From positions 1-39,262 of the forward strand of contig JACDAN010000239.1 of assembly GCA_013695385.1 (NCBI GenBank): a stretch of 39,262 nt of DNA, in the 5' to 3' direction. Positions 31,579 to 38,860 of the stretch are shown here, in pieces; position 1 is the first letter of the stretch, and each line of letters begins with the position of its first letter. The translations under genes were made by a program, and so were the position numbers. The notes under the pieces are model-generated. The model was not told the DNA's origin, did not search any database, and saw only the letters and a list, made by a program, of their open reading frames with translations. The DNA comes from Actinomycetota bacterium. Its GTDB lineage: Bacteria > Actinomycetota > Thermoleophilia > Gaiellales > Gaiellaceae.

Positions 31579-32249
31579 AGGACCTGGACAGCCTCGCGCA
31601 CCTGATCCGTCCCGCGGCGGGCGCGCCGGCCGGCGCACTCGTTCTCTTCCACGGCCGCGGGACGAGCGAGCATGACCTCTATCCGCTGATCGACGTCCTC
31701 GATCCCGAGCACCGTCTCGTGGGAGGAGCGCCCCGCGGACCGCTCGTGCTCCCACCGGGAGGCGCTCACTGGTACGTCGTACGCGACATCGGCTACCCCG
31801 ATCACGAGACCTTCACAGCCGCCTACGATCGCGCGGCCGCTTGGCTCGACGCCTTCTCGGCGGAGACCGGCGTGCCACCGGAGCAGACAGTGATCGGCGG
31901 CTTCTCGCAGGGCGCCGTGATGAGCTGGGCGCTGGGCCTCGGGCGAGGCCGGCCTCGGCCCGCCGGGATCATCGCCCTCTCCGGGTTCATCCCGACCGTC
32001 GGCGGGTTCGGGCTCGACCTGACACCGCCTCTGCCGCCGATCGGGATCGGGCACGGCACCGACGACCCGATCATCTCGGTCGACTGGGGCCGCCAGGCGA
32101 AGGAGCGAATGGAGAGCGCGGGCGGTGGTGTTCTCTATCGCGAGTCCCCCATGCCCCACTCCGTCGACCCGACGTTCCTCGCCGAGCTTCGGCCCTGGCT
32201 CGTCTCGACCATCGATTCGAGCGCTTCCGCCTCGCAATCGCGGAGCTAG
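31575..32249 (+). CDS. Phospholipase/carboxylesterase-type alpha/beta hydrolase, MhqD-like (TTG start)
   Basis: LVLFHGRGTSEHDLYPL...VIGGFSQGAVMSWALG (GFSQG nucleophile elbow)...HGTDDPIISV; overlaps the mhqO-like stop. Confidence 0.88.
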   Translation: MKDLDSLAHLIRPAAGAPAGALVLFHGRGTSEHDLYPLIDVLDPEHRLVGGAPRGPLVLPPGGAHWYVVRDIGYPDHETFTAAYDRAAAWLDAFSAETGVPPEQTVIGGFSQGAVMSWALGLGRGRPRPAGIIALSGFIPTVGGFGLDLTPPLPPIGIGHGTDDPIISVDWGRQAKERMESAGGGVLYRESPMPHSVDPTFLAELRPWLVSTIDSSASASQSRS

Positions 32250-32264
32250 ACCGGGTTCCCGGAG

Positions 32265-32306
32265 AGCGGACGATGGGTTTCGAACCCACGACCTTCGGCT
32301 TGGGAA
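32265..32306 (-). tRNA. 3' fragment of tRNA-Gly(CCC), candidate prophage attachment site (not a complete tRNA)
   Basis: TTCCCAA-GCCGA-AGGTC-GTGGG-TTCGAAA-CCCAT-CGTCCGC-T: anticodon loop to discriminator U, no D-arm or 5' acceptor strand; next to an integrase gene. Confidence 0.8.
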
Positions 32307-32391
32307 GCCCTCCGGGCGGGGTCGGGCTGGGCTGAATCCGCATGGTTTAGCGACGGAGGATCGGGCTGGTGCGATAAGATCAGGGTGTTCG

Positions 32392-32424
32392 GGGACACGG
32401 TTCGGGACACGGTTTTCGTGTCCG
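32392..32424. repeat. GGGACAC direct repeats and inverted copy between att fragment and integrase
   Basis: GGGACAC at 32392 and 32404 (12-bp spacing), inverted GTGTCCG at 32418; GGACACG-GTTTT-CGTGTCC perfect inverted repeat. Confidence 0.6.
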
Positions 32425-32511
32425 GGCCGGAAAGTAGAGTCGCCCGGATGGCAGGTAAATGCCCCCGCACCGCATCCACGGCCGGGGGCCGACACAGGAG
32501 GATCAGCTCCC

Positions 32512-33753
32512 GTGCAAAGTCAGAGTAGTTCGATCAGCGGCCACACCTACATGGTCCAGCGCAAGCGCGGCGACCAGTGGTATGCGAAGTGGCGCGGCCC
32601 GAAGCGTCTCACCGACGGCCGCACCGTCACCGAGCAGACCCAGCAGCGGCTCGGCCCCACCTGGAAAGGCAACGGCCGCCCGCCCGAGGGCTACTTCACG
32701 GCCAAGCTGGCGGAGGCGTGGCTGGCCGCGAAGCTGACGGATCTCCGTCGCGGCGAGGGAATTCCGACCGAGAGCAGCCGCGTCAGCTTCCGGATCGTCG
32801 CCGAGGACTGGTACAGCCACGGCGAGACGGTGCGCGGTTTGAAGGCGAGCACGCTTCGCGACTACCGCTCGGTGCTCGACTGCCATTTGCTCCCGGCCTT
32901 CGGCGAGACGCCGATCGACGCGATCACGAGTCGGATGATCGAGGCGTGGCGCTCACGCGGGATCGCCGACGGGTCGCTGACGCGCCGACCGGCGATCAAA
33001 GCCGTGATGGTGCTGCACGGGATCTTCGAGCGTGCCCGCCGCGCCTACGGGCTGGCGACGAACCCGGTTGCCGATGTCGAGCGGCTGCGAGACGAGTACG
33101 ACCCCGGGGAGTACGACTGGTTCAGCCCCGAGGAGGTGCGGGCACTCGTCCGCGCCGCCGCATCCGAACAGGACGCCGCGACCTTCCTCACCGCCGCCTT
33201 CACCGGCCAGCGGATGGGCGAGCTGCTCGCGCTCCGCTGGCGCGACATCGACTTCGACGCCGAGACGATCCGCGTCTTCGGCTCCGTCGACGAGCGGGCC
33301 GGGCGAACAGTGCCGAAATCGGGCCGCGGACGCTCGGTGCCGATGGTCGCCGACGTAGCCCAGACGCTCGCGAAGCTCGGGCAGCGGGAACGGTTCACCG
33401 GCCGCGACGACCTCGTCTTCCCGAACGCCGTCGGTCACTTCCTCGACAAGTCGGCGCTGCGGCGGCGCTACAAGGAGGCGATCACGACGGCCCGGCTGCG
33501 GCCGATCAAGTTCCACGAGCTCAGGCACACGTTCGGCTCGCTCGCGATCAACGCCGGGTCGATCGTCGAGGTTCAGCACTGGCTCGGGCACGCCGACACG
33601 CGCACGACGAGCCGCTACCTGCACCACAAGAGCCGCGGCGACGAGGCCCGACGGCTCGGCCCGGCCTTCGACGCTCCGACGCTGGCTGCGGACGCCTCGG
33701 CGGGGGCGGCAGAGCCGAGCCGAGCGGGCGGTGGCATCGTGAACGACGCGTAA
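32512..33753 (+). CDS. int: Tyrosine recombinase / phage integrase (GTG start)
   Basis: AGGAGG SD; AFTGQRMGELLALRWRDIDF (catalytic Arg), HELRHTFGSLAINAG (HxLR), WLGHADTRTTSRYLHH (Tyr). Confidence 0.95.
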   Translation: MQSQSSSISGHTYMVQRKRGDQWYAKWRGPKRLTDGRTVTEQTQQRLGPTWKGNGRPPEGYFTAKLAEAWLAAKLTDLRRGEGIPTESSRVSFRIVAEDWYSHGETVRGLKASTLRDYRSVLDCHLLPAFGETPIDAITSRMIEAWRSRGIADGSLTRRPAIKAVMVLHGIFERARRAYGLATNPVADVERLRDEYDPGEYDWFSPEEVRALVRAAASEQDAATFLTAAFTGQRMGELLALRWRDIDFDAETIRVFGSVDERAGRTVPKSGRGRSVPMVADVAQTLAKLGQRERFTGRDDLVFPNAVGHFLDKSALRRRYKEAITTARLRPIKFHELRHTFGSLAINAGSIVEVQHWLGHADTRTTSRYLHHKSRGDEARRLGPAFDAPTLAADASAGAAEPSRAGGGIVNDA

Positions 33754-33778: not shown

Positions 33779-34537
33779 CTACGAGCCGTGGAGCCGCCTT
33801 ACGCTCGCCTCGACCCGACGGAGCCGGTCGGCGATCTCCGCGATTTCTCCGAGCACCTCTGCCTCTGCCGCGACGACCTCCTGCTCGACCTCCACAACCT
33901 CCTCCCGAATGGGTGCGACGAAACGCTCGGCTGCCGCCCCGATCAGCAGCGTTAGGAATCCGATCCCGACGGCCATCGTCGCGACCGCGATCATCCGGCC
34001 CGTGTCGGTGACAGGCGAAACGTCGCCGTAGCCGACGGTAGTCATGGTCGTGAACGCCCACCACAGGCCGTCCCATGTGTTGTCGACGTTTTTGTTCGAC
34101 CCCTCCTCGACGGCTGCGAACCCAGCACCACCGATGAAGAGGGTCAGGAGCGTCAGCAGCGCGGCCCACTGGAGACCCTCGGGCGAGAAGAGCCGCCGCG
34201 CCGCCTGGACGACGCGGAGCAGCCGAAGGAGCCGGAGCAGCCGGAAGACGCGGAGCGCCTGGAGGCTCGCAGGCAGGAACGGAGGCGTCAGGATCACGAT
34301 GGCCAGGTCGAGTGGGTTCGCTCGGATCCATCGCCACCTGTTCGGGACGATCGCGAGCATCACCACGACCTCGGCGAGGAAGACGAGCCAGATCGCCCAG
34401 TTTGTGACCGCCGCGAGCGTCGGCCACGGCTCGCCAGCGTCGGACTGCTCAACGGCGATGACGGGAATCACGAGCAGCGCGGCGATGAGGACAGGGACCT
34501 CGAACCGTCGCTGCCACCGTTCGGCGCGCTCGTTCAC
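33779..34537 (-). CDS. Voltage-gated K+ channel (6TM Kv type, GTG start)
   Basis: Selectivity filter TTMTTVGYGDVSPVT; S4-like ALRVFRLLRLLRLLRVVQAARRL; C-terminal coiled coil. Confidence 0.92.
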   Translation of the reverse strand: MNERAERWQRRFEVPVLIAALLVIPVIAVEQSDAGEPWPTLAAVTNWAIWLVFLAEVVVMLAIVPNRWRWIRANPLDLAIVILTPPFLPASLQALRVFRLLRLLRLLRVVQAARRLFSPEGLQWAALLTLLTLFIGGAGFAAVEEGSNKNVDNTWDGLWWAFTTMTTVGYGDVSPVTDTGRMIAVATMAVGIGFLTLLIGAAAERFVAPIREEVVEVEQEVVAAEAEVLGEIAEIADRLRRVEASVRRLHGS

Positions 34538-34578: not shown

Positions 34579-34737
34579 TTACGTGAGCGCCAGCCAGATC
34601 AAAATCGCCGCGAGGAGCGCAGCGAGTAGCCACAACGCGATAGCCGGTGGAATGAACAGCCGTGGCCGACCCCACCGCCAGCTCGTCCAGACGAGCAGCA
34701 GCACGAGTGCGACGATGATCGCGAACACGGCCAGCAC
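34579..34737 (-). CDS. Small two-TM membrane protein (not in supplied ORF track)
   Basis: VLAVFAIIVALVLLLVWTSWRWGRPRLFIPPAIALWLLAALLAAILIWLALT*: two hydrophobic segments with a basic loop; directly upstream of the channel gene, same strand. Confidence 0.6.
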   Translation of the reverse strand: MLAVFAIIVALVLLLVWTSWRWGRPRLFIPPAIALWLLAALLAAILIWLALT

Positions 34738-34786
34738 GCCGGGAGCCTAGGCACCAACTGCACCGTTCAACCGGGGGGGCTAAGGC

Positions 34787-34805
34787 GGGACATGTCCCGG
34801 GACAC
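34787..34805. repeat. Perfect 12-bp palindrome GGGACATGTCCC followed by GGGACAC
   Basis: gggacatgtcccgggacac between the excisionase-like HTH gene and the two-TM gene. Confidence 0.6.
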
Positions 34806-34862
34806 TCACCCGTGAACCCCGCTCGCTGAGCGGAGAACCCTCGGCTCCTCCAGCCGACGCGC

Positions 34863-35123
34863 TCAGAAGTGGCCTCGGTCGAGCTGCTCCGCCGCCCAGT
34901 CGGCCAGCATCTCGCGTGTCCAGCGGATCGCTCGCGGACCTAGGCGCAGGCAGGGAAGGCGGCCCTGACGCACCCACTCGTACATCGTGCTCGCGGGAAC
35001 GCCGAGCAGGCTTCCTGCGGCTTTCGCGTCGAGCAGCGGCTCGGAGAGATCGACGCCACCCGTCCTCGGAGTACCGCCTTCACCGGCTGCCGAAGGTGCG
35101 CGCAGGGGTTCCTGGTCGGTCAT
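34863..35123 (-). CDS. Excisionase-like helix-turn-helix protein
   Basis: LLDAKAAGSLLGVPASTMYEWVRQGRLPCLRLGPRAIRWTREMLADWAAEQ: AlpA/Xis-type wHTH. Confidence 0.82.
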   Translation of the reverse strand: MTDQEPLRAPSAAGEGGTPRTGGVDLSEPLLDAKAAGSLLGVPASTMYEWVRQGRLPCLRLGPRAIRWTREMLADWAAEQLDRGHF

Positions 35124-35383
35124 CGTTGCTTTTGCTCGGGGTCGGATGTGACGAGTCGGACGGCTGTGATGTGGGTGCAGCGGTTTCGCCAGGCGGGGCA
35201 GGAGCACGACCAGCGGCCGCCTTGGAGTCGGGTCGTGTACGGCGCCGGGCTGCTGCCTTGGACTTGTGCTTCGACTCCGGCTGGGGTGACGGCTTTGACG
35301 GTGACGCGGCCTTCGGCGAGGTAGCGGACGGTTTTCTGCTCGATCGTCTCGCGGGCACGCGAAGACGGGCGCAGGTTGCTCAT
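35120..35383 (-). CDS. Small SWIM zinc-finger protein
   Basis: PYTTRLQGGRWSCSCPAWRNRCTHITAVRL: CxC...CxH SWIM motif. Confidence 0.8.
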   Translation of the reverse strand: MSNLRPSSRARETIEQKTVRYLAEGRVTVKAVTPAGVEAQVQGSSPAPYTTRLQGGRWSCSCPAWRNRCTHITAVRLVTSDPEQKQR

Positions 35384-35982
35384 CGCGTTTTCTCCGACTT
35401 CGGCCAGTGGCACTTGGGGCAGACGCCGAGGGTGTTGCCGTCGATGTGGACGGGGTTGTCGCAGCGTGGGCAGGGGACGGATTCGTCGGGGTTCAGTTGG
35501 GTGAACCCGCGAGGAGAGATAGCGTTAGCTATCTCTCCTACGTTTCTCTCTTCTCCGTTCTCTATTCGTCCCCGCTCCAGCGCGGGACTTCGAGCGGGAC
35601 TTTCAGCGGGACTTTCAGCGGGACTTTCTCCCGGTATCTCCCGCTCCTCGGCGGGACTTTCGCGGCTGGCTGCTAATGCCCGCTCCTCCGCGGGGCTTTC
35701 GAGTAGAAGTTCGTAATGACCGCGGTGCCCTCGCCCGCGCCCTTCGGGCGGGGTAAAGCGGATCAGGCCTTTCTCGACGAGGCCGTCGCGTGCCCGCGTG
35801 AAGCTTCGCCCGTGGGTCAGGCGTGACGTGCCCCGTAAAAGGTCCTCGCCGAGATGCTCGGCTGTTTTCTGCCACCCTAAGAGGCAGCGTACGAGCGCGA
35901 GCGCGAGCTGCCATTCCTGAGCCGTCAGCCCGGCCGCGAGCAGCCGGTCGAAGGCGTCGTTGTAGTCGCTCACCGCCGCCAA
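35380..35982 (-). CDS. Phage replication protein O-like (N-terminal wHTH, repetitive linker, C-terminal zinc ribbon)
   Basis: TAQEWQLALALVRCLLGWQKTAEHLGEDLLRGTSRLTHGRSFTRARDGLVEKGLIRF resembles the Rep_O wHTH; CPRCDNPVHIDGNTLGVCPKC. Confidence 0.7.
   Translation of the reverse strand: MAAVSDYNDAFDRLLAAGLTAQEWQLALALVRCLLGWQKTAEHLGEDLLRGTSRLTHGRSFTRARDGLVEKGLIRFTPPEGRGRGHRGHYELLLESPAEERALAASRESPAEEREIPGESPAESPAESPARSPALERGRIENGEERNVGEIANAISPRGFTQLNPDESVPCPRCDNPVHIDGNTLGVCPKCHWPKSEKTR
35512..35539. repeat. Perfect 12-bp inverted repeat, candidate origin element
   Basis: AGGAGAGATAGC-GTTA-GCTATCTCTCCT. Confidence 0.75.
35582..35700. repeat. Six iteron-like copies of GCGGGACTTTC
   Basis: 35582 (GCGGGACTT, shortened), 35594, 35606, 35618 (exact 12-bp period), 35651, 35690 (GCGGGGCTTTC). 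Confidence 0.75.
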
Positions 35983-36125
35983 ACCTCCCGCGGCAGGAAC
36001 AGCTCGGCCGGGGCTACGGCGCGATCGACAGCGTTCAGCATTGGATCTTCAGGCTCGCGAGTCCGGAGCTGGAGCAGCTCGTCCGTGAGCTTCGCTCCTC
36101 GCGGAGCGCCCGGCCGCTGCTCCCG

Positions 36126-36398
36126 CTAGCCTGAGTCATCCTCGCCGCCACTCCCGGCGGGATTAGCGACAGGCCCGGTACCCAGCCGGGCTGTCGTCTT
36201 TTCGGAGCCGTTCGAGCGCCGGTCAGCGATGAACTGGCGAAGCGTCTCCGGTTCGACCAGGACGCGCCCGCCGATCCGCACCGTCGGCAGCTCACCGGCC
36301 CAGACGAGTCGCCAGGCCGTCGCCCGGCTCAGACCCAGCACGCGGGCGGCGGAGGTCACCGAAAGCAGCGGCTCGAATACGGACTCGTTCCTGCTCAT
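36126..36398 (-). CDS. AlpA/excisionase-like helix-turn-helix protein
   Basis: MSRNESVFEPLLSVTSAARVLGLSRATAWRLVWAGELPTVRIGGRVLVEPETLRQFIADRR. Confidence 0.8.
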   Translation of the reverse strand: MSRNESVFEPLLSVTSAARVLGLSRATAWRLVWAGELPTVRIGGRVLVEPETLRQFIADRRSNGSEKTTARLGTGPVANPAGSGGEDDSG

Positions 36399-36576
36399 GC
36401 GTATTAAAGAATCGGCGCAAGTCTTCGCGACCCCTAGTCGGGAAACGCGAACTTCCGCAAAATGCGGCAATTTTCTTTCGCGATCGCTTTACCGAACGCG
36501 AAACCTCACTGCGGTCGATAAAGAACTATCGAATGATAGGATCTGCTTTACGGACGCGTTACCGGGGACGGACGCG
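36399..36576. promoter_or_regulatory. Prophage intergenic region with two palindromes, candidate operator/promoter region
   Basis: CCGCA-AAA-TGCGG (36455-36467), CTATC-GAAT-GATAG (36526-36539); locally AT-richer. Confidence 0.5.
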
Positions 36577-36804
36577 CTAGAGGGGGTCGGACTTCTCCAG
36601 GATCTCCCGCCGCAGTCTGGCGAGCTGCAGCCCAACTGAGGTCGGCGAGCAGCCGAGCTGCTTCGCGATCTGCTCGTGCGAGTAGCCCTGGAGCTGCGGA
36701 ATCGCGATCTCCACCATCATCCGGGCGGCGTCGTCGCTAAGCGACTCCCAATCCACCGAACCCGGGGACGGCGCCTTCCGCTCGCGGCCTACTTCGGAGG
36801 CCAC
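36577..36804 (-). CDS. Small sigma-70-region-4-like HTH phage protein (GTG start)
   Basis: VASEVGRERKAPSPGSVDWESLSDDAARMMVEIAIPQLQGYSHEQIAKQLGCSPTSVGLQLARLRREILEKSDPL. Confidence 0.65.
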   Translation of the reverse strand: MASEVGRERKAPSPGSVDWESLSDDAARMMVEIAIPQLQGYSHEQIAKQLGCSPTSVGLQLARLRREILEKSDPL

Positions 36805-36920
36805 GGCCTCGCCTCGGACATTGGTGCGCCCTCCACGCGGATCCGTCCGTTTTCGATCACGAAAACGTCGCCGGGTTTGCCTGGAGGGTGCGGACCGTCG
36901 ATCGGCCGGATCACGCTCAT
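36789..36920 (-). CDS. Small hypothetical phage ORF (43 aa, not in supplied track)
   Basis: MSVIRPIDGPHPPGKPGDVFVIENGRIRVEGAPMSEARPWPPK*; GGCGGGG upstream; overlaps the start of the next gene. Confidence 0.5.
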   Translation of the reverse strand: MSVIRPIDGPHPPGKPGDVFVIENGRIRVEGAPMSEARPWPPK

Positions 36921-37035
36921 CCCCGCCGATGGTATCCCGAACAGCCGTTCGTGCTGCCTCTCGGCGCGAGAGCGGCCCAGAAACGCTCCAGGTGGACCTC
37001 CGGTCCATCCGCCGATCGCAGGGCTTTAGACGGGC

Positions 37036-38481
37036 TCACAGCACGTCGCCATAACGGGCGGAATCGAACCGACCGAAAGCCTCGACGGCGACCGGCAACG
37101 GCGTCGCCGTCCTGAACGACGCACGGCTGTTCCCGCCCGCGCCGCCATGGTGGGAAACCGCGAGCGCGAGCGCCTGCGCGCAGTCGCCGTGGCTGCCGCC
37201 GACCCGAGGGTTCACGACGGCCGCACTTCCCGCGCTGTACCGGGTTCGGAGCCGCCGCAGCTCCGCGAGCAGCGTCGCCTCGTCGTACAGCTCCAGGCTC
37301 CCGGCGTTCAGCCGGGCGCGCAGCTCGGAGAACGCGACCGTCTTCGACGTGGCGGTCATCGGGACGGTGCGGACGTTCAGGCCGCGACGGCGGAGGTAAT
37401 CGACGATCTGCGGCGCGGCGTATTGATCCGTGACGACCTTCGCCCTGAAGCGGAGACAGACGGCCGCAACCTCCGCGAGCACCGTGTCCTCGACGGCCCG
37501 CCGATCCTCGAACGACCCGGGCTTCCGCCGTGACGGTTTCCACGCCCGGGCGAGGCCAAGCACGAGCCGCCCACGGTCGCCGGGGTCACGCCCGACGACC
37601 GCCAGGCCGAAGGGGTCGGAGCTGAACGCGGGATCCAGTCCGGCGACCCATCCGGTCGCCTGCTCCGGGAGCAGCTCGCCGGGGAGCACGACCGCCTCGG
37701 CGATCCGCTCCGGGTCGAGGAAGCTGTGCCCGCCGCCGACGAACTCGGCCAGGTACTCGCTGCGGAAGCTCTCGGGGTCACGGGCCTGCTCGCGGGCCAG
37801 GAATCCGGCGTCGATCGTCGGGTTCATTTCGGCGGTCGGGACACGGTGCGCCATCGCGTCCTCCAGCTCGCCGCTCGACGCCTGCTGGAAAAGCTGCGCG
37901 AACAAGCCGTCGCTCCCATAGGGCGTCGAGGCCAAGAGGACCACGGCGGCGTCGCCGAACTGCGCCGTCGAGGGAACGAGCGACGCGAAAACTCGCTCAG
38001 CCACGGCCGGGCCTTCCGTGTCGGAGATGAAGTGCGCGGCCTCATCGAGGAGCACCGTCGAGATCGGCCAGCCTCTCGCGCCGCGAGACGAGCACGGGAA
38101 CGCGCTGAGAGCGGTGCCGTTGCGGAACAGGATCTCGTCCTCGGTCGCCTGCTCGATCAGCTTCGAGAGCAGCGGACTCCGCTCAACGATCGAACGAGCT
38201 GCGGCCACGAACAGCCGCGCCTGCCGCAGATTCGTAGCGACGCAAACGACGTGCCGCCGCTCACCCGGACGCACCTTCTCGTCGAGGGCGGGACGGAGCA
38301 GGCAATCCCAGAGGCCGACGAGCGCCGCCATCGTTGTCTTGCCCGAGCGCCTCCCCAGCGCGAGAACGTGGAGTCGCGGGCCATCCTCGATCGCCGCCAG
38401 GATCTCCCGCTGCCGGGGCCAGAGGGGAAACCCGAGTAGGCGGCGGTTGTCGCAGGCTTCTACCAGGCCGCTAGTTGCCAT
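37036..38481 (-). CDS. terL: Phage terminase large subunit
   Basis: LHVLALGRRSGKTTMAALVGLWD Walker A; STVLLDEAAHF Walker B; nuclease-like AGLDPAF and VTDQYAAPQIVDYL segments. Confidence 0.92.
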   Translation of the reverse strand: MATSGLVEACDNRRLLGFPLWPRQREILAAIEDGPRLHVLALGRRSGKTTMAALVGLWDCLLRPALDEKVRPGERRHVVCVATNLRQARLFVAAARSIVERSPLLSKLIEQATEDEILFRNGTALSAFPCSSRGARGWPISTVLLDEAAHFISDTEGPAVAERVFASLVPSTAQFGDAAVVLLASTPYGSDGLFAQLFQQASSGELEDAMAHRVPTAEMNPTIDAGFLAREQARDPESFRSEYLAEFVGGGHSFLDPERIAEAVVLPGELLPEQATGWVAGLDPAFSSDPFGLAVVGRDPGDRGRLVLGLARAWKPSRRKPGSFEDRRAVEDTVLAEVAAVCLRFRAKVVTDQYAAPQIVDYLRRRGLNVRTVPMTATSKTVAFSELRARLNAGSLELYDEATLLAELRRLRTRYSAGSAAVVNPRVGGSHGDCAQALALAVSHHGGAGGNSRASFRTATPLPVAVEAFGRFDSARYGDVL

Positions 38482-38860
38482 TCGACTCGCGGTACTCCGC
38501 GTCGATGTAGTCCTGCAGCGCCGCAACCGGGTCGGCGTGACGGTCGCGGAGATGCTCCCGCAGCCGAACGGCGGCGAGCCGGGCGCAGTTGAGCGCCGTG
38601 AAGTAGATCTTCGCCGCCGGACGCGGCTCCCCGGATGCGTCGAGGAGGCCGTGCTCGTCGAAATACGCGTCGAGCAGCGCGACCTTCGCCTGCGCCCGAC
38701 TCCAGTTGTCGAGCAGCGCGAGCGCCACCCCGTCGAGGTCGGACGCCTTCAGTCCGACTTGGCGCAGAAAACGCCGCTTCTGGGCGCGAGCTGCGGGTCG
38801 GATTTGGGCCACGCTTTCGCCGCCGTGGACGAGCGCATTCCGGTTCCCCCGCTGTGACAT
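38471..38860 (-). CDS. Putative phage terminase small subunit
   Basis: MSQRGNRNALVHGGESVAQIRPAARAQKRRFLRQVGLKASDLDGVALALLDNWSRAQAKVALLDAYFDEHGLLDASGEPRPAAKIYFTALNCARLA; directly upstream of terL. Confidence 0.65.
   Translation of the reverse strand: MSQRGNRNALVHGGESVAQIRPAARAQKRRFLRQVGLKASDLDGVALALLDNWSRAQAKVALLDAYFDEHGLLDASGEPRPAAKIYFTALNCARLAAVRLREHLRDRHADPVAALQDYIDAEYRESNGN

Follow-up and report, generated by a model that had tools for sequence, protein, structure and literature searches.

The origin of phage lambda lies within the gene of its own initiator (PMC3349717), where the O protein binds dyad iterons and an AT-rich region melts (PMC7466680, PMC3349717). The initiator of phage SPP1 (gene 38/oriL) binds direct repeats in its own gene, beside an AT-rich unwinding element (PMC6316719), and the N-terminal domain of the pSK41 initiator recognises Rep boxes located midway along the rep gene, the peptide encoded there being a dispensable linker (PMC5703833). 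A mycobacteriophage study weighed an in-gene origin for repA and found no repeats (PMC7157519); from the lactococcal replisome-organiser literature we relied on no in-gene origin. An origin inside the initiator gene is already known (lambda, SPP1, pSK41), and we found no earlier description for the actinobacterial lineage considered here.

We analysed a stretch of 39,262 nt (hereafter the window), contig JACDAN010000239.1 of assembly GCA_013695385.1, from an Actinomycetota bacterium (Gaiellaceae). Judged from its sequence, the segment 35512–35700 is very probably a lambda-like replication origin inside its own initiator gene, carried by an integrated phage-like element. The gene and the two folded parts of its product are as follows.

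35380–35982, minus strand: O-like initiator gene, 200 aa (open frame; relatives L002 and L003; PHROG match)
35713–35976, minus strand: winged-helix N-terminal domain, about aa 3–90 (AlphaFold model, fold matches, hhalign)
35392–35481, minus strand: C-terminal zinc ribbon (CPRC...CPKC), which replaces the C-terminal domain of L002 and L003

The initiator may start with TTG at 35982 or with GTG at 35973, the latter having the better ribosome-binding-site spacing. From N to C terminus the protein consists of the winged-helix domain, an ESPA-rich linker and the zinc ribbon. The AlphaFold model of the N-domain has the order H-H-(E)-H-H-E-E with pLDDT of 80–90 across most of it, and the linker is predicted to be disordered (pLDDT <50 over aa 109–164). 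The relative L002 shares 47% identity with the window initiator over aa 3–135, and L003 shares 49% over the N-domain; both relatives carry a further C-terminal domain. Matches of the window protein to O-family HMMs are each weak taken singly: the PHROG family 'replication initiation O-like' gives E 0.012 (L002 is also a weak match), and Pfam PF04492 (Phage_rep_O) gives 12.0 bits for the window protein and 22.3 bits (E 2e-4) for L002, both below the curated cut-off of 28.7. According to hhalign, the N-domain alignment matches lambda O over 68 columns (P=5.8e-4), and the best viral fold neighbours of the N-domain are lambda GpO N-terminal domain proteins, together with other replication proteins. 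Its fold neighbours in the PDB are generic winged helices, MarR-like ones included, all weak; a PDB sequence search gave no match, and the Pfam scans, read as far as E 1, showed no RepA_N domain in the window protein. The RepO-like N-terminal winged helix proposed in an earlier reading of this DNA (the sequence-only reading) is thus supported, by profile and modelled fold, as an O-like domain.

The same reading had described six copies of an 11-mer. Six sites are present, of which four are exact copies of GCGGGACTTTC (35594, 35606, 35618 and 35651, with none other in the 39 kb), one has a single mismatch (GCGGGGCTTTC at 35690) and one has two (GCGGGACTTCG at 35582). Three exact copies (35594, 35606 and 35618) stand in tandem at 12-bp spacing, as it had stated, within an array of period 12 at 35582–35628. 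All six sites share one reading frame, as expected if they code for E-S-P-A, which agrees with its view that the repeats encode the ESPA repeats, and no out-of-frame iteron copies are found in the window. The true repeat unit is a dyad, not the lone 11-mer: a second, inverted half-site lies within each of 35569–35592, 35638–35661 and 35677–35700 (GAAAGTCCCGC-CGAG-GAGCGGG), the full-dyad form on the coding strand being GAAAGTCCCGC-N4-GAGCGGG. The repeats resolve to three 18-bp hyphenated dyads (TCCCGC-N6-GCGGGA type) and three tandem 12-bp units, which are left half-sites placed between the second and third dyad. We found no further strong dyad sites at the initiator's own or neighbouring promoters. 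On the coding strand the iterons are followed by a purine-rich, least-stable tract and then by a 28-bp inverted repeat.

35677–35700, minus strand: iteron 1, full dyad GAAAGCCCCGCGGAGGAGCGGGCA, the window's top match to a matrix built from L002 only
35638–35661, minus strand: iteron 2, full dyad GAAAGTCCCGCCGAGGAGCGGGAG (dyad analysis)
35594–35628, minus strand: three tandem 12-bp half-site units GAAAGTCCCGC(T), at the three tandem exact 11-mers
35569–35592, minus strand: iteron 3, full dyad CGAAGTCCCGCGCTGGAGCGGGGA (dyad analysis)
35526–35565, no strand assigned: putative DNA unwinding tract, the gene's 40-bp stability minimum (rank 1/564)
35512–35539, no strand assigned: perfect inverted repeat, 12-4-12 bp, AGGAGAGATAGC-GTTA-GCTATCTCTCCT (stem search)

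The putative unwinding tract begins 5 bp past the last dyad; purines make up 82% of its coding strand, and 0.03% of window positions match it in instability. The slightly longer segment 35511–35570 is the lowest-stability 60 bp in the element part of the window, equalled at 5e-5 of all window positions. Between the 11-mers and the hairpin, the strand-asymmetric pyrimidine-rich tract of the sequence-only reading is present, with 89% pyrimidine on the plus strand over the best 36 bp, a bias that is reached on either strand at 5e-5 of window positions. The perfect 12-bp hairpin with its GTTA loop was also confirmed, at 42 bp from the nearest 11-mer (given earlier as about 45 bp). It overlaps the far side of the unstable tract and is the sole perfect stem of at least 12 bp (loop 3–8) in the window, with 0 in 20 simulated windows. 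A stem this long arises in 1.7% of synonymous recodings (p=0.017), so the hairpin is partly dictated by the amino-acid sequence. The unstable tract is weaker in the relatives (rank 28/768 in L002 and 9/699 in L003), neither of which keeps the perfect hairpin. The region 34700–37100 of the window contains six terminator-like hairpins (1.6 expected), five of them on the plus strand, opposite to the genes.

Conservation of the DNA beyond that of the protein was evaluated against a synonymous null in which codons were resampled with the protein held fixed, the codon usage being that of the longest ORFs of the window (a few of which may be spurious). Relatives were sought in overlapping searches that covered about 1,330 genomes in all; these gave two true relatives only (L002 and L003), so the conservation evidence rests on few sequences. 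In-frame 10-mer repetition exceeds the null in the window (p=0.0007), and it does so too in a control, the unrelated AEAPAEAP protein L004 (p=0.0002), which is without dyads. Since this control scores equally high, we discarded in-frame 10-mer repetition as evidence, and tandem ESPA repeats carry little weight by themselves. Nor do exact 6-bp dyad counts, taken alone, reach significance (p 0.47 in the window and 0.11 in L002).

The comparisons with the relatives are more specific. L002 holds three GAAACGCCCGCCCCNNAGCGGGCA-type units; the L002-only matrix scores 35.4 on the window linker (synonymous null 14.9±4.8; 0/5000), and in reverse the window matrix scores 41.1 on L002 (null 20.4±5.1; 0/5000). 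At identical residues the same codon is used in 11/13 cases in position-matched iterons, as compared to 20/45 in the winged helix (Fisher p=0.011). These comparative tests, which we call decisive, indicate that L002 keeps the DNA motif beyond the protein's requirement. L003 is without ESPA, and its linker repeats CCTCATGTCGCAGT and a dyad, TGTCGC-N6-GCGACA, whose copies are 37 and 23 bp apart and therefore fall in differing frames (HVAVARQ vs SCRSGG), i.e. one DNA motif is read in different frames. This two-frame repetition is reached in 0/20000 synonymous resamplings, and lambda O, used as a positive control, behaves like L003 in the synonymous test. The sequence-only reading had named relatives with ESPA kept and nucleotide repeats diverged as evidence that would speak against it; the retained motif of L002 and the other dyad of L003 support its interpretation instead.

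A distant winged-helix gene from another actinobacterial family (L024:739–1794, minus strand) has a QGGDTTPLS-repeat linker, the DNA of which contains inverted-repeat iterons of the CAGGGGGG-N8-CCCCCCTG type; going by sequence, it is likely the same arrangement in another lineage. No relatives of the initiator were found by single-protein scans of genome contigs and viral contigs, by the initiator alignment (A1) against viral contigs, or by the L002 protein against phages. A TerL bait had no match in viral contigs and retrieved distant terminases only in phages. Among the candidates found with a helicase bait (A2), L010 and L011 were rejected (helicase fused to a primase-like part, with no O-like gene after it), as was L012, a distant DnaB. 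L004, L015 and L017 were set aside as chance or low-complexity matches, L016 has stops inside its frame, and L021–L023 are weak matches.

The element around the initiator contains an integrase, two HTH_17 genes, a SWIM-like gene, the initiator, a sigma-region-4-like gene and a terminase large subunit, after which the contig ends. The features that define it are listed below.

36126–36470, minus strand: HTH_17 (excisionase/AlpA-like) gene, upstream of the initiator (Pfam HTH_17, E 7e-12)
37036–38526, minus strand: terminase large subunit (PHROG terminase large subunit, E 5e-29)
32125–33753, plus strand: tyrosine integrase (Pfam Phage_integrase, E 1e-27), its true start probably downstream of 32125
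32264–32309, minus strand: attachment-site copy, the displaced 46-bp 3' half of tRNA-Gly(CCC) (100% match)

By its terminase match, the element has a predicted phage packaging gene. The segment 32264–32309 is identical to contig C236:61–106 (L030) of the same genome, the 3' half of a tRNA-Gly(CCC) that is intact there and lies 60 bp from the end of that contig. These matches indicate that the element is integrated at tRNA-Gly(CCC), with the 46-bp repeat as the attachment site at its two ends, and contig C236 appears to hold the opposite junction. The neighbour of the integrase is an ion-channel gene (33779–34537, minus strand; Pfam Ion_trans and Ion_trans_2), an unusual cargo that falls on the element's side of the attachment site. 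A small gene directly downstream of the initiator (35120–35413, minus strand) matches the SWIM zinc finger weakly, with a score under the curated cut-off.

The L002 and L003 initiators are each directly downstream of a DnaB-family (DnaB_C) helicase gene, which in L002 stands between the HTH_17 gene and the initiator and which is absent from the window. We found no helicase or P-like loader gene adjoining the window initiator, in an element that is cut by the contig end, and the one helicase homologue that the window's genome contains is a frame of 468 aa with 28% identity, presumably the host DnaB. A tblastn search of the window found no remnant of the relatives' C-domain, frameshifted ones included. 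The helicase gene and the C-domain are lost together, which suggests that the C-domain of L002 and L003 contacts the helicase. The L002 element (G239 contig C22, L026:11381 to L028:5352) is at most about 13.5 kb, bounded by its own integrase and a homocysteine methyltransferase/MTHFR gene; it has two methylase genes inside and no virion protein among the ORFs scanned, and is probably a satellite or small integrative element. The 6.2-kb contig L027 encodes a terminase small subunit, a DnaB-like helicase, an O-like initiator, HTH_17 and an integrase, and its predicted gene layout is phage-satellite-like.

The repeats could reflect nothing but a low-complexity protein linker, ESPA having grown by slippage of a 12-bp unit with the DNA repeats as a side effect. 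All window copies are in frame and code for ESPA, none is out of frame, the tandem array repeats every 12 bp, its exact copies could have arisen by recent slippage, and L004 shows an in-frame excess as well (p=2e-4). We nevertheless consider this explanation improbable, because three copies are dispersed, each with an inverted half-site, the repeats border on the gene's stability minimum, the motif is shared by L002 to a degree that its protein does not require (0/5000 in each direction), and the L003 dyad is repeated in two frames while L004 has no dyads. It is very improbable that the dyads are operators, bound by a winged-helix regulator inside its own gene without origin function: such a role fits the weak MarR-like PDB neighbours, the HTH genes clustered around the initiator and the resemblance of the dyads to dimer sites, but it would leave the tract and the inverted repeat unexplained, strong sites are lacking at the promoters, the viral fold neighbours are replication proteins, and the relatives are paired with DnaB-family helicases. 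Self-repression and origin function of the initiator could be compatible.

A decayed origin would combine iterons inherited from a working lambda-like origin with the loss of the helicase and of a helicase-recruiting C-domain, replication proceeding by other means or not at all. L002 and L003 have both parts and the window has neither, which may mean that its origin is impaired or no longer works, and the presumed host DnaB is the genome's one helicase homologue; against decay, the open frame is unbroken, the shortened protein carries a complete zinc ribbon at its end, the iterons and tract of the window are better preserved than those of the relatives, and the remainder of the element, off the contig, could encode a helicase or loader. 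We judge decay to be unlikely. Concerning the hairpin alone, and not the iterons, a transcription terminator or an RNA structure unrelated to the origin is unlikely: the hairpin is flagged as terminator-like on the plus strand, one of the six in its region, but its tail (ACGTTTCTCT) is without a continuous T run, it would stop only antisense transcription in mid-gene, and lambda has the same 12-4-12 repeat in the same place.

The DNA of the window provides the gene, the dyads, the tract, the inverted repeat and the lambda-like order, with DNA-level conservation in relatives; for a lambda-like origin inside the initiator gene, we infer binding, melting and helicase loading by analogy with lambda. 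Dimers of the initiator N-domain would bind the 18-bp dyads where the gene encodes the linker, the tandem half-sites would contribute further, cooperative contacts, and wrapping or bending would strain the DNA so that the adjacent purine/pyrimidine-asymmetric tract melts. The replicative helicase, in this element that of the host, would be loaded at the melted tract, the 28-bp inverted repeat would mark the far edge of the origin, and the ESPA linker peptide would be mostly a by-product of the DNA sites. We infer that the short version in the window is still active, using the host helicase. A more specific proposal, which we regard as doubtful, is a minimal lambda-like initiator in which a zinc ribbon takes the place of the C-domain seen in relatives with their own helicase, so that the protein itself brings the helicase or primase of the host to an in-gene origin made of dyads and a tandem half-site array.

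If so read, the locus adds mobile elements from a GC-rich lineage of uncultured actinobacteria to the carriers of a lambda-type in-gene origin, a lineage in which repeat-rich linkers could pass for mere protein repeats. Dyads scored against a synonymous null, out-of-frame copies and an adjacent stability minimum provide a computable test for phage origins elsewhere, and the missing helicase gene and C-domain raise the question of how a short initiator loads a helicase.

Among described systems, RepA_N plasmids (pSK41 rep) resemble the arrangement proposed for the window in having the origin inside the initiator gene, in its linker-coding part, with a different initiator family. SPP1 gene 38/oriL shares in-gene repeats beside an unwinding element, whereas SPP1 encodes a helicase (gp40) and a loader (gp39) of its own and possesses a further origin, oriR. 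With the lambda O gene and its origin (NC_001416, 39034–39160) the window shares a winged-helix N-domain of the O-like kind, hyphenated dyads of 18 bp in the DNA that codes for the linker, an adjacent unstable tract rich in purines on the coding strand, and a 12-4-12 inverted repeat beyond it. The lambda record has four annotated iterons, each an 18-bp hyphenated dyad (the first reads ATCCCTCAAAACGAGGGA); the 40-bp stability minimum of its O gene begins 2 bp past the last iteron (rank 1/861, 70% purine on the coding strand), and its inverted repeat is 92% complementary, in the same relative place as that of the window. The differences are the iteron sequence and spacing, the extra tandem half-sites of the window, the several frames of the lambda iterons as compared to one, the zinc ribbon where lambda O has its C-domain, and a window without a neighbouring P-like loader or helicase gene. 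The single unusual feature is that the initiator is shortened and has no helicase of its own beside it. The lambda O/ori arrangement put forward in the sequence-only reading is supported on the lambda record by order and geometry, tandem ESPA 12-mers alone not being diagnostic (L004): the order of the parts, the strand asymmetry and the inverted-repeat geometry of the window agree with those of the lambda origin.
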